From contig OX638293.1 in the NCBI GenBank assembly GCA_951812335.1, positions 186,001-250,000 of the forward strand: 64,000 nt of DNA, read 5' to 3'. Under the pieces are notes generated by a model that was not told the origin of the DNA, made no database searches, and saw only the letters and a list, made by a program, of their open reading frames with translations. The DNA comes from Rhodothermales bacterium. GTDB lineage: Bacteria; Bacteroidota; Rhodothermia; Rhodothermales; VXPQ01. Shown in pieces: positions 6,094 through 35,445 of the stretch (within the stretch, counting starts at the first letter, position 1; every line of letters starts with the position of its first letter). The position numbers and the translations under genes are program-made.

Positions 6094-9000
6094 CTACCAG
6101 CCTACCGTCATGTTGACCGTCCTCGTCACCGAATTCGCGGGACTGGCCGAATCGGTAACGGTAAGCCGAACTCCCACAATCATAATCTCGAGCATTGATA
6201 TCGTCCTCGTATAACTGCTTCCCGATCCCACCCCTATATTCCACTGCAACTCGCAGACGGGCGGTGCTGTGCTCGGGACGCAGGTCCCATAATCCCAGCT
6301 GTACGTGTAGGAAGGTGTGCCGCCTGTGGCCGTGGACCCCCATGTGTATTCCGCTTCATCCGAGCCGATCCTTGTCCATGTTGGACCCGTGATGGAGGCC
6401 GTAAGGTTCACCCTCACGGTCACTGTGTCCGTGACGCTTTCGCACGGACTCGTACCCGTAGCCGTGATCGTGTACGTCGTCGTGCTATCGGGAGAAACCG
6501 ATCGCGTTCCCGACGTCGCAACCGAACCGATGCCCGGACTGATCGACACGCTCGTAGCATTCGTAGACGACCACTCGAGCGTCGAACTACTGCCGACGTT
6601 AATCGTGCTCGGATCGGGATCCTCAAACTCGACCGTAGGAAGTGGATTAACCGTCACGGTTGCCGGATCCGAATCCGTTCCGCCAGCACCTATGGCCGTA
6701 GCCGTGTACGTCGTCGTGCTATCCGGAGAAACCTCTTCCGATCCCGACGTCGCAACCGAACCGACGCCCGGAATGATCGATACGCTCGTAGCGTTCGTAG
6801 ACGACCACTCGAGCGTCGACGAATTTCCTGCGCAAATCGTAACCGGATCGGCCGACAGCGTGATTGTCGGCGGCTGATTAACCCTCACGATCACTGTGTC
6901 CGTGGCTGTTCCACAACCATTTGTCGCCTTGATCGTGTACGTCGTCGTACTATCGGGAGAAACCGATACCGTGTGCTCTCCCGACGTCGTCGCAACCGAA
7001 CCGACGCCCGGACTGATCGACACGCTCGTAGCGTTCGTAGACTCCCAAGTAAGCGTCGAACTACCTCCGACATTAATCGTGGTCGGCGACGCAGTGAACG
7101 ACGTGATCGCAGGAAGTGGATTAACCGTCACGAGCGTTGTGTCCGTGGCCGTTCCGCCTGCACCTTTTGCCGTCGCCGTGTACGTCGTCGTGCTCGTCGG
7201 AGAAACCTCTTCCGATCCCGACGTCGAAACCGAACCGACGCCCGGACTGATCGATACGCTCGTAGCGTTCGTAGACGACCAGGTGAGCGTCGACGACTGT
7301 CCTTCGCAAATCGTAACCGGATCGGCCGACAGCGTGACTGTCGGAGGCTGATTAACCGTGACGATCACTGTGTCCGTGACGCTTTCGCACGGACTCGTAC
7401 CCGTAGCCGTGATCGTGTAGGTTGTTGTGGTCGTGGGGGAAACCGATTGCGTTCCCGACGCCGCAACCGTACCGATGCCCGGACTGATCGACACGCTCGC
7501 AGCGTTCGTAGACGACCAGGTAAGCGTCGAACTACCTCCGACATTAATCGCGCTCGGCGACGCAGTGAACGACGTGATCGCAGGAGGCGCACGAACCGTC
7601 ACGAGCGTTGTGTCCGTGGCCGTTCCGCCTGCACCTGTTGCCGTCGCCGTGTACGTCGTCGTACTCGTCGGAGAAACCTCTTCCGATCCCGATGTCGCAA
7701 CCGAACCGACGCCCGGACTGATCAACACGCTCGTAGCGTTCGTAGACGACCAGCTAAGCGTTGACGACTGTCCTTCGCAAATCGTAACCGGATCGGCCGA
7801 CAGCGTGACTGTCGGCGGCTGATTAACCGTCACGGTCACTGTGTCCGTGACGCTTTCGCACGGACTCGTACCCGTAGCCGTGATCGTGTACGTCGTCGTG
7901 CTCGTCGGAGAAACCGATTGTGTTCCCGACGCCGCAACCGTACCGATGCCCGGACTGATCGACACGCTCGCAGCGTTCGTAGACGACCACTCGAGCGTCG
8001 AACTACCCCCGACGTTAATCATGCTCGGATCGGGATCCTCAAACTCGACCGTAGGAAGTGGATTAACCGTCACGAGCGTTGTGTCCGTGGCCGTTCCACC
8101 TGCACCTGTGGCCGTAGCCGTGTAGGTTGTCGTGCTATCGGGAGAAACCGATCGCGATCCCGATGTCCCAACCGAACCGACGCCCTGATCGATCAACACG
8201 CTCGTAGCGTTCGTAGACGACCAGGTGAGCGTTGACGACTGTCCTTCGCAAATCGTAACCGGATCGGCCGACAGCGTGACTGTCGGCGGCTGATTAACCG
8301 TCACGGTCACTGTGTCCGTGACGCTTTCGCACGGACTCGTACCCGTAGCCGTGATCGTGTACGTCGTCGTGCTCGTCGGAGAAACCGATTGTGTTCCCGA
8401 CGCCGCAACCGTACCGATGCCCGGACTGATCGACACGCTCGCAGCGTTCGTAGACGACCACTCGAGCGTCGAACTACCCCCGACGTTAATCATGCTCGGA
8501 TCGGGATCCTCAAACTCGACCGTAGGAAGTGGATTAACCGTCACGAGCGTTGTGTCCGTGGCCGTTCCACCTGCACCTGTGGCCGTAGCCGTGTAGGTTG
8601 TCGTGCTATCGTGAGAAACCGATCGCGATCCCGATGTCGCAACCGAACCGACGCCCTGATCGATCAACACGCTCGTAGCGTTCGTAGACGACCAGGTGAG
8701 CGTTGACGACTGTCCTTCGCAAATCGTAACCGGATCGGCCGACAGCGTGACTGTCGGCGGCTGATTAACCGTCACGGTCACTGTGTCCGTGACGCTTTCG
8801 CACGGACTCGTACCCGTAGCCGTGATCGTGTACGTCGTCGTGCTCGTCGGAGAAACCGATTGTGTTCCCGACGCCGCAACCGTACCGATGCCCGGACTGA
8901 TCGACACGCTCGCAGCGTTCGTAGACGACCACTCGAGCGTCGAACTACCCCCGACGTTAATCATGCTCGGATCGGGATCCTCAAACTCGACCGTAGGAAG

Positions 9001-12000
9001 TGGATTAACCGTCACGAGCGTTGTGTCCGTGGCCGTTCCGCCTGCACCTGTGGCCGTAGCCGTGTAGGTTGTCGTGCTATCGTGAGAAACCGATCGCGAT
9101 CCCGATGTCGCAACCGAACCGACGCCCTGATCGATCAACACGCTCGTAGCGTTCGTAGACGACCAGGTGAGCGTTGACGACTGTCCTTCGCAAATCGTAA
9201 CCGGATCGGCCGACAGCGTGACTGTCGGCGGCTGATTAACCGTCACGGTCACTGTGTCCGTGACGCTTTCGCACGGACTCGTACCCGTAGCCGTGATCGT
9301 GTACGTCGTCGTGCTCGTCGGAGAAACCGATTGTGTTCCCGACGCCGCAACCGTACCGATGCCCGGACTGATCGACACGCTCGCAGCGTTCGTAGACGAC
9401 CACTCGAGCGTCGAACTACCCCCGACGTTAATCATGCTCGGATCGGGATCCTCAAACTCGACCGTAGGAAGTGGATTAACCGTCACGAGCGTTGTGTCCG
9501 TGGCCGTTCCGCCTGCACCTGTGGCCGTAGCCGTGTAGGTTGTCGTGCTATCGGGAGAAACCGATCGCGATCCCGATGTCGCAACCGAACCGACGCCCTG
9601 ATCGATCAACACGCTCGTAGCGTTCGTAGACGACCAGGTGAGCGTTGACGACTGTCCTTCGCAAATCGTAACCGGATCGGCCGACAGCGTGACCGTAGGC
9701 CCCGCATTGACCGTCACCACGACCATGTCCGGCGCAGAGTCTTGCGTCCCGTCGTTCACCGTCAGCTCGAACTCCAGCACCGAGTCCGACACAAGCTGCG
9801 TCGGCGCCGTGAACCTCCGCTCGTGCGGCTCCGCGGTACTCGACAGCGCGATATTATCGAGGGAGACCCAGGTATAGGTCAGCGCCGCACCCTCCGGGTC
9901 GGAGCTGCCACTCCCGTTCAGCGTCACCGTATCCCCTTCGTCCACCGTCTGGTCGGGGCCTGCATCGGCCGTCGGCGCATCGTTGCAAATGTTGTCGCTG
10001 TCGCCCTCGAACTCATCGAGATCGCCAAGCCATTGCTGGAATGCGGTATCTCCCGGCACGCACAGTTCGTCGTCGACTTTCAAGGAAATGAGATTGTCCA
10101 GGTTGACAAACTCCGACGGGATCGAGCCCGAAAGGTCGTTCTCACCGATCCACAGCCTCATGAGGTTGGCGAGGTCGCCCAACTCCGCAGGGATCGAACC
10201 CGAAAGGGAGTTCTCACCGATCGACAGGCCCGTGAGGTTGGCGAGGTCGCCCAACGCCGCAGGGATCGAGCCCGAAAGGGAGTTGCTAGCGAGATTCAGC
10301 CATTCGAGGTTGGCGAGGTCGCCCAACGCCGCAGGGATCGAGCCCGAAAAGGAGTTCTCACCGATCGACAGGCTCGTGAGGTTGGCCAGGTCGCCCAACG
10401 CCGCCGGGATCGAACCCGAAAGGTCGTTGCGGAAGAGATTCAAGCTCTCGAGGTTGGTCAAGTCGCCCAACGCCGCCGGGATCGAACCCGAAAGGTCGTT
10501 GCTAGCGAAATTCAGGTGTTCGAGGTTGGCGAGGTCGCCCAACGCCGCAGGGATAGAGCCCGAAAGGTCGTTGCGGAAGAGATTCAGAGAAACCACCCGT
10601 CCGGCGTCGTCGGTCGTGACGCCGTACCACGTATCGATGGCGGCGTTACCGTTCCAGTTGTCATTGTGCTTCCAATTGGCCCCGCCGGTCGAGTCGTAGA
10701 GCGCGACCAGCGCCGCTCTGTCCTTCTGATACACCGTCACCACGACCGTGTCAGCCTCGGAGTCTTGCGCCCCGTCGTTCACCGTCAGCGTGAACTCGAG
10801 CACCGCGTTCGACACAAGCTGCGTCGGCGCCGTGAACGTCGGCGCCTGCGCCGCGGCGTTCGGCAGCACGGTCCCCGACAAAGCCGTCCAGGCGTAGGTC
10901 GGGTTGATCAGCGCATTGCCATTACTGTCCGTACCCGAACCGGAGAGCGTCACCGTTGCCCCTTCGTCCACCGTCTGGTCGAGGCCTGCGTTGGCCACAG
11001 GCGGATCGTTGCAGATGTTGTCGCTGTCGCCTGAGAATACAGTAAGATCGCCAAGCCATTGCTGGAACGCGGTATCTCCCGGGACGCACAGCCCGTTGTC
11101 GACAGAAAAGTTCGATAGATTGTTCAAGTTGACAAACGCCGCAGGGATCGAGCCCGAAAGGGAGTTGTTTTGGAGCCACAGCCATTCAAGGTTGGTCAAG
11201 TCGCCCAACTCCGTCGGAATCGATCCCGTCAGGGAGTTGTCGTGGAGCCACAGTTGTTTGAGGTTGGTCAAGTTGCCCAACGCCGCAGGGATCGAGCCAG
11301 TCAGGTCGTTGTCGTAGAGAGCCAGTACCTCGAGGCCGGTCAAGTCGCCCAACTCCGCAGGGATCGAACCCGAAAGGGAGTTGCTGCGGAGATTCAGGTT
11401 CTCGAGGTTGGTCAAGTCGCCCAACTCCGCAGGGATCGAACCCGAAAGGGAGTTGTTTTGGAGATAGAGTATCTCGAGGTTGGCGAGGTCGCCCAACTCC
11501 GCAGGGATCGAACCCGAAAGGGAGTTGCCCCACAGACGCAGGGTATCGAGGTTGGTCAAGTCGCCCAACTGCGCAGGGATCGAACCAGTCAGGTCGTTGT
11601 CGTAGAGATCCAGTATTTCGAGGTTGGTCAAGTCGCCCAGCGCCGCAGGGATCGAGCCCGAAAGGGAGTTGCTCCAGAGATATAGTACCTCGAGGTTGGC
11701 GAGGTCGCCCAACGCCGCAGGGATCGAGCCCGAAAGGGTGTTGCCCCGGAGATTCAGGTTCTCGAGGTTGATCAAGTCGCCCAACGCCGCAGGGATCGAG
11801 CCCGAAAGGTAGTTGTCATAGAGATAGAGTATCTCGAGGTTGGTCAAGTCGCCCAACGCCGCAGGGATCGAGCCCGAAAGATCGTTGCCGTAGATATCCA
11901 GTATTTCGAGATTGGTCAAGTCGCCCAACTCCGCAGGGATCGAGCCTGAAAGATCGTTGCCACTGAGATACAGGTTTTCGAGGTTGGTCAAGTCGCCCAA

Positions 12001-13233
12001 CTCCGCAGGGATCGAGCCCGAAAGGGAGTTGAAACCGAGATCCAGAGAAACCACCCGTCCGGCGGCGTCGGTCGTGACGCCGTACCACGTACCGATGGCG
12101 GCGCTACCGTTCCAGTTGGTATTGTCGTCCCAATTGGCCCCGTCGGTCGAGTCGTAGAGCGCGACCAGCGCCGCTCTGTCGCTCTGAGCGTCCGACGTCG
12201 CCATCATCATCGCCCCCTGCGCCACCGTCTGGTCGGCGCCCACATCGACCGCCGGTTTTGACCGGTTCAATCGGTTGCCGCTGGCGCTCGCGGTCGTACT
12301 CGCCGTCGAACTCTTTGCAGATACCGATTCCGATACAGAAACCGATACCGATTCGGATTTAGATTTAGAAACCAATACCGATTCCGATTCGGATATCGAC
12401 TCCGAAACGATCGGACGCCAATCGATCATCTGGTACGCATCGTCGTCCGCGAATCCCAGCAATTGCACATCGAAAGCATCCGAAGACGTTCCGCAGCCCG
12501 AAACGTCTTTCGGGATCTCCCCTTCCGCTTCGCCGGATATGGAGCCATAAAAACGACGGTGCAAAACGGTAGACACATCCAGGCTATCTCCCTCGAAAAC
12601 GATTCGTCCGAACCGACCGCCCGCGCAAACGGCTTTTCTCCAGCCAATATCGTTATAACTCGATATATCCTCAAGGATATGCGTCCTGGCCCCGATGGCC
12701 TGGGACGTAATAGCGATATCGCCGTTATCCCATGTGAAATACGTATCGACATCGACAGCGGAGGGCAAAAGGACCAGTAACGCATCGCCTCTCGCAGGAC
12801 TATCGAAAGAGAGGGCGTACAAAGCATCCCGTCCAAGCGCGGGAACGCCTCCCTCTCCATGGATATCTACCCCCTCCGAATGCGCGGCCCCCCAGTGGTA
12901 TATCGTACCCTTCGCAGGTATGCCGAGCGTAGCGTAACCGGTCTCGTTATAATCCGTATGCCAGGATTTGACATGTACGCGCACGCTATCCGGATTGCCG
13001 TCGGCGCTCAAGATCCGACCCAAAAGCGCATACCGATCCAGGGAAGACGCACCCTCTCCGGGAACGCCGCCTGCACGGGCCGTACTGTCCCCGGGGGCGA
13101 CACGCGCATTAGCCCCCGCAGACGGATCGACATCGTCCAGGCCCGTCAGCGCCCCGTCGTCGCACGCGCTCAGCGTCAGCAGCGAGACCGTTAAAGCCGC
13201 CATGCCCGCGACGATCCAGGATATAGTTCTCAT
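6094..13233 (-). CDS. Giant modular surface lipoprotein: LRR, PKD-like and Ig-like repeats, 2379 aa
   Basis: The ATG at 13233 has GGAG six bases upstream. The lipobox LSAC is followed by DDG, and acidic residues after the Cys are typical of surface-exported Bacteroidetes lipoproteins. A Ser-rich linker (about 280-320) precedes an LRRNT-like cap (GTWYGVTTDAAGRVVSLDL) and 13 leucine-rich repeats of 24 residues (about 408-718, core SGSIPAELGDLTNLE). A PKD-like segment, a second cap with seven LRRs (about 885-1048) and another PKD-like segment follow. Then come seven 157-159-residue modules, each two Ig-like domains (STLTWSSTNA ... STTTYT), up to a C-terminal domain ending MTVGW. Four modules are near-identical 471-bp DNA repeats. 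LRR and Ig arrays suggest adhesion or binding at the surface (inference). No C-terminal sorting domain is seen. Confidence 0.88.
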   Translation of the reverse strand: MRTISWIVAGMAALTVSLLTLSACDDGALTGLDDVDPSAGANARVAPGDSTARAGGVPGEGASSLDRYALLGRILSADGNPDSVRVHVKSWHTDYNETGYATLGIPAKGTIYHWGAAHSEGVDIHGEGGVPALGRDALYALSFDSPARGDALLVLLPSAVDVDTYFTWDNGDIAITSQAIGARTHILEDISSYNDIGWRKAVCAGGRFGRIVFEGDSLDVSTVLHRRFYGSISGEAEGEIPKDVSGCGTSSDAFDVQLLGFADDDAYQMIDWRPIVSESISESESVLVSKSKSESVSVSVSESVSAKSSTASTTASASGNRLNRSKPAVDVGADQTVAQGAMMMATSDAQSDRAALVALYDSTDGANWDDNTNWNGSAAIGTWYGVTTDAAGRVVSLDLGFNSLSGSIPAELGDLTNLENLYLSGNDLSGSIPAELGDLTNLEILDIYGNDLSGSIPAALGDLTNLEILYLYDNYLSGSIPAALGDLINLENLNLRGNTLSGSIPAALGDLANLEVLYLWSNSLSGSIPAALGDLTNLEILDLYDNDLTGSIPAQLGDLTNLDTLRLWGNSLSGSIPAELGDLANLEILYLQNNSLSGSIPAELGDLTNLENLNLRSNSLSGSIPAELGDLTGLEVLALYDNDLTGSIPAALGNLTNLKQLWLHDNSLTGSIPTELGDLTNLEWLWLQNNSLSGSIPAAFVNLNNLSNFSVDNGLCVPGDTAFQQWLGDLTVFSGDSDNICNDPPVANAGLDQTVDEGATVTLSGSGTDSNGNALINPTYAWTALSGTVLPNAAAQAPTFTAPTQLVSNAVLEFTLTVNDGAQDSEADTVVVTVYQKDRAALVALYDSTGGANWKHNDNWNGNAAIDTWYGVTTDDAGRVVSLNLFRNDLSGSIPAALGDLANLEHLNFASNDLSGSIPAALGDLTNLESLNLFRNDLSGSIPAALGDLANLTSLSIGENSFSGSIPAALGDLANLEWLNLASNSLSGSIPAALGDLANLTGLSIGENSLSGSIPAELGDLANLMRLWIGENDLSGSIPSEFVNLDNLISLKVDDELCVPGDTAFQQWLGDLDEFEGDSDNICNDAPTADAGPDQTVDEGDTVTLNGSGSSDPEGAALTYTWVSLDNIALSSTAEPHERRFTAPTQLVSDSVLEFELTVNDGTQDSAPDMVVVTVNAGPTVTLSADPVTICEGQSSTLTWSSTNATSVLIDQGVGSVATSGSRSVSPDSTTTYTATATGAGGTATDTTLVTVNPLPTVEFEDPDPSMINVGGSSTLEWSSTNAASVSISPGIGTVAASGTQSVSPTSTTTYTITATGTSPCESVTDTVTVTVNQPPTVTLSADPVTICEGQSSTLTWSSTNATSVLIDQGVGSVATSGSRSVSHDSTTTYTATATGAGGTATDTTLVTVNPLPTVEFEDPDPSMINVGGSSTLEWSSTNAASVSISPGIGTVAASGTQSVSPTSTTTYTITATGTSPCESVTDTVTVTVNQPPTVTLSADPVTICEGQSSTLTWSSTNATSVLIDQGVGSVATSGSRSVSHDSTTTYTATATGAGGTATDTTLVTVNPLPTVEFEDPDPSMINVGGSSTLEWSSTNAASVSISPGIGTVAASGTQSVSPTSTTTYTITATGTSPCESVTDTVTVTVNQPPTVTLSADPVTICEGQSSTLTWSSTNATSVLIDQGVGSVGTSGSRSVSPDSTTTYTATATGAGGTATDTTLVTVNPLPTVEFEDPDPSMINVGGSSTLEWSSTNAASVSISPGIGTVAASGTQSVSPTSTTTYTITATGTSPCESVTDTVTVTVNQPPTVTLSADPVTICEGQSSTLSWSSTNATSVLISPGVGSVATSGSEEVSPTSTTTYTATATGAGGTATDTTLVTVRAPPAITSFTASPSAINVGGSSTLTWSSTNAASVSISPGIGTVAASGTQSVSPTTTTTYTITATGTSPCESVTDTVIVTVNQPPTVTLSADPVTICEGQSSTLTWSSTNATSVSISPGVGSVSTSGSEEVSPTSTTTYTATAKGAGGTATDTTLVTVNPLPAITSFTASPTTINVGGSSTLTWESTNATSVSISPGVGSVATTSGEHTVSVSPDSTTTYTIKATNGCGTATDTVIVRVNQPPTITLSADPVTICAGNSSTLEWSSTNATSVSIIPGVGSVATSGSEEVSPDSTTTYTATAIGAGGTDSDPATVTVNPLPTVEFEDPDPSTINVGSSSTLEWSSTNATSVSISPGIGSVATSGTRSVSPDSTTTYTITATGTSPCESVTDTVTVRVNLTASITGPTWTRIGSDEAEYTWGSTATGGTPSYTYSWDYGTCVPSTAPPVCELQWNIGVGSGSSYTRTISMLEIMIVGVRLTVTDSASPANSVTRTVNMTVGW
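7821..9704 (-). repeat. Four tandem 471-bp repeats inside the giant lipoprotein gene
   Basis: Units start at 7821, 8292, 8763 and 9234 with an exact 471-bp period. They differ from each other by only a few bases (for example atcgggag versus atcgtgag). Each encodes 157 residues, that is two Ig-like domains. Flanking modules at about 6404-6876, 6877-7349 and 7350-7820 encode the same domain pair but have clearly diverged. The period is a multiple of three, so gain or loss of units keeps the frame. Confidence 0.95.
10090..12060 (-). repeat. Two arrays of 72-bp leucine-rich-repeat units
   Basis: Minus-strand 72-bp units encode 24-residue LRRs. There are seven at about 10090-10580 and thirteen at about 11100-12060. 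Most contain the same DNA core (on the plus strand ggttggtcaagtcgcccaac or a near copy). The consensus L-x-G-S-I-P-x-x-L-G-D-L-x-N-L is the plant-specific LRR class. The arrays are separated by a PKD-like segment, and both end in the same capping text with CVPGDTAFQQWLGDL, so the cap-LRR-cap block was duplicated. Confidence 0.9.
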
Positions 13234-20695: not shown

Positions 20696-20725
20696 ACGCC
20701 GTATACCGTTCTCCCTCCCTTTTTT

Positions 20726-20992
20726 AAGGATACTCCGATCAAAACCGCTTCGCTCAGCACTTCACGTTCGCAAGTAAAGTAATGTCATGATTCCATCGTT
20801 GAAATCAGCGGGACACACTGATGTTTCGGGCATCGCGGAGGCGATGCGCCCTTCGGAAGGCTGCGAGGAGCACGCTGGCCGCGTCATTCCTCATTATGCG
20901 GGGCCTGCCACATTGCTTCGTCATGCCTTGCCAGCCCACCCATCGCAGCCTCTGAACTTCGTGGACTTAATCAGAGTATTTTAAGGATGCTC
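20726..20992 (+). mobile_element. Three-arm repeat, full copy B (R-end first)
   Basis: It starts AAGGATACTCCGATC and ends with the complement of the L-end (GGACTTAATCAGAGTATTTT). Internal arms are recognisable: GCCACATTG and CATTATGCGGGGC around the first arm, and the CATGATTCCATCGTTG loop segment of the second arm. It is directly abutted by copy C in the same orientation, so the two form a tandem pair between the MGMT-like gene and murB. No protein-coding gene is supported within it. Confidence 0.9.
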
Positions 20993-21241
20993 TGATCAAG
21001 TCCACTTCGATCAGCGCTTCACTTTCACGCGTAAAGAACGATATGCTTGCATCGTCGGAATCAGCGAAAAACACGGCGGATTCGGGTCGTCTCGGCCGTG
21101 AAGCGCCCTTCGGGAGGCAGACAAAGGCACGCTGGCTGTGTCATTCCTCATTATGTGGGGCCTACCACATTGCTTCGTCATTCCTTGCCAGCGCGCCCCT
21201 TTCAGCCTCTGAATCTTTGCGGACTTAATCAGAGCATCCTT
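20993..21241 (+). mobile_element. Three-arm repeat, full copy C, tandem with copy B
   Basis: Termini are AAGGATGCTCTGATCAAGTC and the complement of AAGGATGCTCTGATTAAGTC, so both ends carry GATGC where most copies have GATAC. The first arm pairs GGCACGCTGGC with GCCAGCGCGCC. The second arm pairs GCGCTTCAC with GTGAAGCGC. It ends two bases before an in-frame ATG of murB (21244), and thus forms the murB leader. Confidence 0.9.
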
Positions 21242-34404: not shown

Positions 34405-34544
34405 TCTGCGCTCATCAACGCTCCGTCAAGTGGAAAGGACAGGGTGCGGCCGGGAATGCGCAGCGTATGCAAAACGTTACGACAGATGCCGGACAGACGC
34501 TCTTAACAAGCCTTCGACACAAAAGATCCCGGAGGGCGAATTTC

Positions 34545-34789
34545 AGGATACTCTGATCAAAACCGCTTCGCTCAGCGCTTCACGTTCGTGCGGATAAGAC
34601 ATCATGATTCCATCGTTGGAATTAGGGGAAGCACTGCGGATTTGGGACAGTGCGGACGTGACGGAGGCATAGAGGGGCACGCTGGCCGCGTCATTCCTCA
34701 TTGTGTGGGGCCTGCCACACTTCTTCGTCATTCCTTGCCAGCGCACCCCTCACAGTCTCTGAGATTTGCAGACGTAATCAGAGTATCCT
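34545..34789 (+). mobile_element. Three-arm repeat, full copy F (R-end first)
   Basis: Ends are AGGATACTCTGATCAAAACC and the complement of AGGATACTCTGATTACGTC. The arm-1 loop ATTGTGTGGGGCCTGCCACAC and the arm-2 loop CATGATTCCATCGTTGGAAT are seen. It lies upstream of the four-gene envelope operon, at the border to an AT-rich island. Confidence 0.9.
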
Positions 34790-34977
34790 AAAGGAGATTT
34801 GCGCGCAAAACGGGCCGATAAACCCAAAAAAGCAAATTATAATAATTGAAAGTGAAGTATTTCAAATACCTCTAAAAATGTAATGGCAAGGAATTTATTT
34901 CAAAATATTCCTTGATATTGTGCCTGGAAAACACGCAAAAAACCGGATGTACAACGATATGCAGTCGAAATGTTTAA
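34790..34977. other. AT-rich intergenic island with short inverted repeats
   Basis: This stretch is far more AT-rich than the genes around it. AAGGAAT (34888-34894) and ATTCCTT (34907-34913) form an inverted repeat, and GTATT-TCA-AATAC lies at about 34857-34869. A minus-to-plus reading of 34916-34990 gives a short coding-like stretch (RKKPDVQRYAVEMFKPSYL) in frame with ATG 34970. No complete gene is seen. Confidence 0.5.
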
Positions 34978-35445
34978 ACCGTCTTATTTACCCCCCCCCC
35001 CCGGAATTCACACAAATTTAATAATAAAATACTTGACAATGGCATCGTAGAAGAAGCTCGAAAAAACTTCCTCGAAACAGATGCCTCGCATGCGGAAAAG
35101 AACGACATTGTGGTGGCGCTCGGGTATATCCATGACAATCTGCTTTCGCCCTCTTTGTCCGTAATGAAAGTAGTTGAAAAATGCCGTATCCAGACCGATT
35201 GTTTCTACGGCCGATTCGCGGACGAAGTTACGCCGAACGGCGATGCGCGAAGAACGCCCGGAGAATACATAACATGGGCGCGCATCCAGGTAGCCCGGCG
35301 CATACTTGAACACGGCGCTTGCAATTTGACGGAACTGGCGTACGCGCTGGGATTCAATTCGTACCCGACTTTCTGGCGGGCGTGTCGTAAGCATCTCGGT
35401 TGCAAACCGGCGGAAGCGGCGAAAATGAATGGGAAGGCGGGTTGA
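34970..35445 (+). pseudogene. AraC-type HTH regulator frame, interrupted at a 12-C tract
   Basis: The C-terminal part is an AraC-family DNA-binding domain: two helix-turn-helix segments (SVMKVVEKCRIQTDCFYGRF, and LTELAYALGFNSYPTFWRACRKHLG) with PGEYITWARIQVARRILE between them, ending about 20 residues later. In one frame this is open from about 34978 with no ATG; a GTG at 35110 could start a 111-residue product. An ATG at 34970 reads into the C-tract (34991-35002) and then stops at 35048 in the present length. One extra C would join that ATG to the regulator frame. So it is either phase-variable, a decayed fragment, or a sequencing error in the homopolymer. Confidence 0.6.
34991..35002 (+). 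repeat. Poly-C tract of 12
   Basis: Twelve C residues in a row lie between TTTA and GGAATTC. It is placed seven codons after the only nearby ATG and before the AraC-type frame. Homopolymers of this length are prone to slipping both in cells and in sequencing. Confidence 0.9.

Follow-up and report, generated by a model that had tools for sequence, protein, structure and literature searches.

The best-documented cases of slipped-strand switching come from host-adapted pathogens such as Neisseria, Haemophilus, Campylobacter and Bordetella. In Bordetella pertussis, a poly-C switch between C6 and C7 in bvgS controls this regulator (PMC1891110), and mga of group A streptococci has an 8C/7C tract (PMC11868660). 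Searching the open-access literature, we found no report of C-tracts causing phase variation in Rhodothermales or sponge symbionts, and none of an AraC-family regulator under the control of a homopolymer within its coding sequence. The locus described here lies in a 64,000-nucleotide stretch of Rhodothermales DNA (the window) and, judging from its sequence, is quite likely a translational ON/OFF contingency locus operating by slipped-strand phase variation, one of three phase-variable AraC regulators that consist of the DNA-binding part only. Since the two sister genes, as well as relatives in other species, have this unstable run in the same place, a random on/off switch for this regulator family is very probable.

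The tract and the frames around it

The sequence-only reading placed 12 C residues between an ATG at 34970 and an AraC-type HTH frame, itself intact, that is one base out of register with this ATG; counting the tract bears this out, at exactly 12. C12 is the longest homopolymer of the window; the next C run has 6 residues and runs of other bases never exceed 8. The AT-rich island noted earlier is also real, extending over 240 bases with 30% GC (tract excluded) against 58.7% for the window. From ATG 34970, located 21 bases before the tract, the frame at C12 reads MFKPSYLPPPPGIHTN... and meets a stop after 26 codons. The HTH frame, one base off this ATG, is open from 34978 to 35445 (155 codons, stop at 35443-35445), and frame arithmetic indicates that the two would merge at 13 C. 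ATG 34970 is thus out of frame as had been stated, but it is not the only ATG: those at 34947 and 34959 are present in the third frame, and from them fusion with the HTH frame would occur at 11 or 14 C. Since these two need 11 or 14 C and ATG 34970 needs 13, a length of 12 falls in the only residue class modulo 3 that leaves the HTH without any ATG in frame. We infer that the alternative ATGs may also be used. Upstream of the GTG at 35110, the HTH frame contains no ATG, GTG or TTG.

Table 1. Features of the locus and its paralogs (window coordinates; genome coordinates for paralogs b and c; G003a and G004b are homologues in congeneric genomes)
Feature	Position	Strand	Evidence or comment
Poly-C tract, C12	34991..35002	+	Proposed slipped-strand switch, OFF state; homologous tracts in paralogs and congeners
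Proximal ATG, most likely the true start	34970..34972	+	Homologous ATG in frame with the HTH in paralog c, G003a and G004b
Alternative ATGs 34947 and 34959, third frame	34947..34961	+	Frame arithmetic; ATGTAC start kept in paralogs b and c
Internal GTG, first usable start after the tract	35110..35112	+	Judged not to be the normal start: preceding 34 codons conserved as protein
HTH frame, AraC-type regulator without ligand-binding domain	35003..35445	+	HTH_18 E=6e-14; dN/dS well below 1 on both sides of GTG 35110; AraC-type fold
Pfam HTH_18 match	35251..35421	+	E=6e-14, protein residues 92-148
Conserved 23-bp element, TCAAATAC(C/T)(C/T)CTAAAAATGTAAT	34862..34884	+	Exactly upstream of the three paralogs
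MITE-like repeat, a neighbour outside the switch	34530..34800	.	49 genome matches
Paralog b	1512219-1512656	-	88% amino acid identity to a; C13-G, tract at 1512658-1512670; OFF from the proximal ATG
Paralog c	797200-797622	+	74% amino acid identity to a; C18-G, tract at 797181-797198; ON from the homologous ATG

The encoded protein belongs among AraC/XylS regulators by its C-terminal ~100 residues, in which the HTH_18 match, the helices and the fold all point to two HTH motifs. An N-terminal effector or dimerisation domain, common in AraC/XylS but neither universal nor required for membership, is missing: only ~45 residues precede the DNA-binding part. The AlphaFold2 model, built from a four-sequence alignment, has eight helices at a mean pLDDT of 75. 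It shows residues 1-17, which the tract encodes, as disordered, so that changes in tract length should be harmless as long as the frame is kept. The best Foldseek matches are AraC-type DNA-binding domains (6swi, 3oio, AdpA, SoxS and MarA; best E 2.4e-3, TM-score to target 0.72-0.82, and 0.72-0.86 for AraC-type DNA-binding domains overall), while in NCBIfam AraC equivalogs matched below threshold only.

The 23-bp element has three matches genome-wide at up to three mismatches, all upstream of the paralogs, and a reversed control gave zero; TCAAATACTCCTAAAAATGTAAT occurs in the genome at the three paralogs only. It is partly kept in the copies of congeners G002, G003 and G004 and is a probable promoter or operator. 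A mobile repeat had been placed next door by the sequence-only reading, and indeed a MITE-like repeat of ~260 bases is found there. About 40 of its 49 scored matches are near full length, at 79-84% identity (from 275 first-look candidates), and tandem copies are present at 20722-21234 of the window. The window also contains large tandem repeats (6410-9700 and 10118-12031) in units of 471 and 72 bases.

Sister genes and relatives within the genus

The genome containing the window (2.69 Mb, one contig) encodes three members of the family, paralog a in the window and paralogs b and c elsewhere, each with a long C-tract at the corresponding place. C/G runs of at least 10 number just four in the entire genome, and three of them belong to the three paralogs, at matching points, which is more than chance. 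There are only seven runs of at least 9, those of exactly 9 all lying inside long continuous ORFs, and this rules out that C-tracts are simply common in this genome. As assembled, the tract of paralog a is C12-GG and leaves the gene OFF from the proximal ATG. In paralog c the homologous ATG is in frame and opens a 170-residue ORF beginning MPYISYPPPPPPNSHKFNKK....

The fourth run, 11 bases long (L026:1134-1144; G000:C1:2684533-2684543), directly follows a lipobox-like N-terminus (MSIRT...LLSSCDS) and interrupts a lipoprotein frame: the part behind the run spans at least 377 codons, has a peptidase M15-like match and is out of phase. This run is a candidate fourth switch in the genome. A 244-residue AraC-type protein (L027:3084-3818), 30% identical to the family, is encoded ~0.9 kb downstream of paralog c.

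Near-identity between paralogs a and b extends from ~80 bases ahead of the HKF codon to ~100 bases past it, and recurs C-terminally. Between these parts 13 of the 35 residues at 42-76, a stretch covering the first HTH, differ. Such near-identical flanks around a divergent part suggest segment exchange between the two genes. The dN/dS ratio in the divergent stretch is ~0.3, and we therefore do not claim positive selection.

We found the family in the genus of the window only; outside it there were just distant AraC domains with ~30-40% identity, and a search of viral contigs returned no relatives. Two of the outcomes that the sequence-only reading had named as speaking against it were homologues starting at the internal GTG and a match only to the end of a larger regulator. 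Neither occurred. Homologues begin ~11-25 residues ahead of the HKF motif and are 150-170 residues long, which rules out a fragment of a larger regulator. The in-frame form predicted for 13 C also has counterparts, as MxKPSYLPPP..RNSHK is present in congener G003 and a poly-C in-frame form in paralog c. The G003a homologue has a tract interrupted by T (CCCCCTCCCTCCC) and is in frame (MLKPSYLPPPSRNSHK...). G004b is without a tract, its 5' end is in frame (MPEKSDSLNSHK...), and it is later truncated after ~60 family residues, with no remainder found across contig ends. With its C11, the G002 homologue is in frame with none of the nearby ATGs. Members of a second subfamily (G003b and G004a) have no tract, start with MIP(K/E)Y... 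and span 162-164 residues in the alignment. Thus, across paralogs and species (not isolates of one strain), the tract is found as C12-GG, C13-G, C18, C11, interrupted or absent.

C-tracts are unevenly distributed in the genus, with ~38-39 C/G runs of at least 9 in each of G001 and G002 and one in G004. In G002, several of them occur a few codons past the ATG in DNA methyltransferase, type IIG restriction-modification and surface-type genes. Two tandem N6_N4_Mtase genes (L134:1505-1514 and L134:4103-4113) each have a C-tract 2-4 codons after the ATG; as assembled, the C10 form reads MNSPPPSDN-stop and is OFF, and the C11 form (MTIAPPPTNVQN..., 461 residues) is ON. By sequence this pair is a candidate phasevarion. 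Two type IIG-like restriction-methyltransferase genes have 11-base C/G runs (L136:1496-1506 and L145:1543-1553), one right after the start codon and the other inside the nuclease domain, and both are OFF as assembled, while Calx-beta or LapA-like surface proteins with a start-proximal C-tract are ON. Together, these genes look like a classic phase-variable set. Of 18 G002 tracts, 8 are 5'-proximal, compared to 19% for random positions (simple test, binomial P=0.011), a modest enrichment that is supportive rather than overwhelming. Congeneric draft contigs end in or near very long C runs of up to 50 or 43 bases (G003:C44:1-50; L132, at the end of G002:C1), which are either real or an assembly artefact.

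Proposed switch and its alternatives

The proposed slipped-strand layout is supported by the tract together with the intact off-frame ORF, by the in-frame homologues, by selection on the frame and by tract lengths that differ between paralogs and species. The 23-bp element confined to the three paralogs and the C-tract genes of G002 speak for it as well. The locus combines the traits of a contingency locus: a homopolymer in or beside an ORF longer than chance would give, a change of length that toggles the frame of an intact ORF, and a length that varies among related copies. In the mechanism we propose, transcription would start upstream, near the 23-bp element, and translation would begin at ATG 34970. 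Gain or loss of C at replication would then shift the frame seven codons in. In the ON state this would yield a DNA-binding-only AraC-type regulator of 155-170 residues with a floppy proline-rich N-terminus; in the OFF state, in which the window copy was assembled, the product would be cut off after ~26 codons. Paralogs a (OFF), b (OFF) and c (ON) would represent three regulators able to switch independently, presumably within a population. These ON/OFF assignments follow assembled homopolymer lengths and may err by one base; the argument for a switch draws mainly on the conserved position of the tract and the conserved frame behind it.

This brings up the main rival explanation: a genuine tract whose length was miscalled by one base in paralogs a and b, the genes being permanently in frame. 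Assemblies indeed tend to gain or lose bases in runs of 12-18 C, the shift is one and the same base in both a and b, which would fit a systematic undercall, and several congeneric contigs end in or near long C runs. However, paralog c with its 18 C is in frame within the same assembly, and in the independent G002 assembly one of two neighbouring paralogous methyltransferase genes is OFF and the other ON. Moreover, a miscall leaves unexplained why every paralog retains the tract in the same place. We therefore regard it as unlikely, although the most serious of the alternatives.

Programmed frameshifting, in which transcriptional or ribosomal slippage on the C-tract yields a fixed full-length fraction at any tract length, is markedly less probable. 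Homopolymers can promote slippage, which would permit expression from an OFF sequence, yet relatives with a broken or absent tract read in frame without it, and neither length nor frame of the tract is conserved as a programmed site would require. Slightly less probable still is that a and b are decaying pseudogenes frozen OFF, with c the working gene. Two of the three copies are OFF and the G004b relative is truncated, but the HTH frame of a and b has no stops or other frameshifts, its dN/dS is low, and the two genes seem to have exchanged 5' and 3' segments recently, although they differ in the part covering the first HTH.

Selection also bears on the internal GTG. In the 34 codons between tract and GTG, paralogs a and c differ by 7, 2 and 16 changes at codon positions 1, 2 and 3 (third position, 16 of 25), corresponding to dN 0.18, dS 1.29 and dN/dS ~0.14; the part downstream of the GTG is likewise constrained. 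Such purifying selection implies that the GTG is not the usual start and that translation normally begins further upstream and runs through the tract. Translation from GTG 35110 with the tract in a 5' leader, perhaps tuning expression, is accordingly the least credible alternative: the 111-residue ORF keeps the HTH_18 match, but protein-level conservation of the preceding codons holds across paralogs and species, and an upstream ATG is in frame in three homologues.

Returning to phase variation, a broader reading is tentative, and we would put it at somewhat below even chances: three DNA-binding-only AraC paralogs, each with its own C-tract and swapping segments around a variable first HTH, might produce up to eight random regulatory states in a Rhodothermales lineage that would also switch DNA methyltransferases and surface proteins by C-tracts.

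Comparison with known systems

As a protein, the window regulator resembles the single-domain AraC regulators of the MarA/SoxS type (1bl0, 7w5w), which likewise consist of the DNA-binding domain alone with two HTH motifs. However, it has no close sequence relation to them (~24-26% identity in the fold match) and has an extra N-terminal helix and the tract-encoded tail. As a switch, it is similar to bvgS (PMC1891110) in that a C-tract lies within the coding region of a regulator and a one-base change truncates the product. BvgS, in contrast, is a sensor kinase, and its C6/C7 tract is internal to a large gene; in the window family, C12-18 follow the start by a few codons, the product is a small DNA-binding protein, and three paralogs share this layout. 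The mga gene (PMC11868660) is also a transcription regulator gene with a C-tract, but it is a single gene with a short tract, encoding another protein in another phylum. Phase-variable mod methyltransferases (phasevarions) share with our locus a repeat near the 5' end of a gene controlling many others, and congener G002 appears to have phasevarion-type methyltransferase genes with C-tracts; in the window, however, the switched product is the DNA-binding regulator itself. Thus, poly-C switching of regulators is a known mechanism, while the family, the host lineage and the threefold set appear to be new. If correct, our interpretation would extend homopolymer bet-hedging to uncultured Rhodothermales, in which transcription regulators and probably also DNA methyltransferases would be switched.
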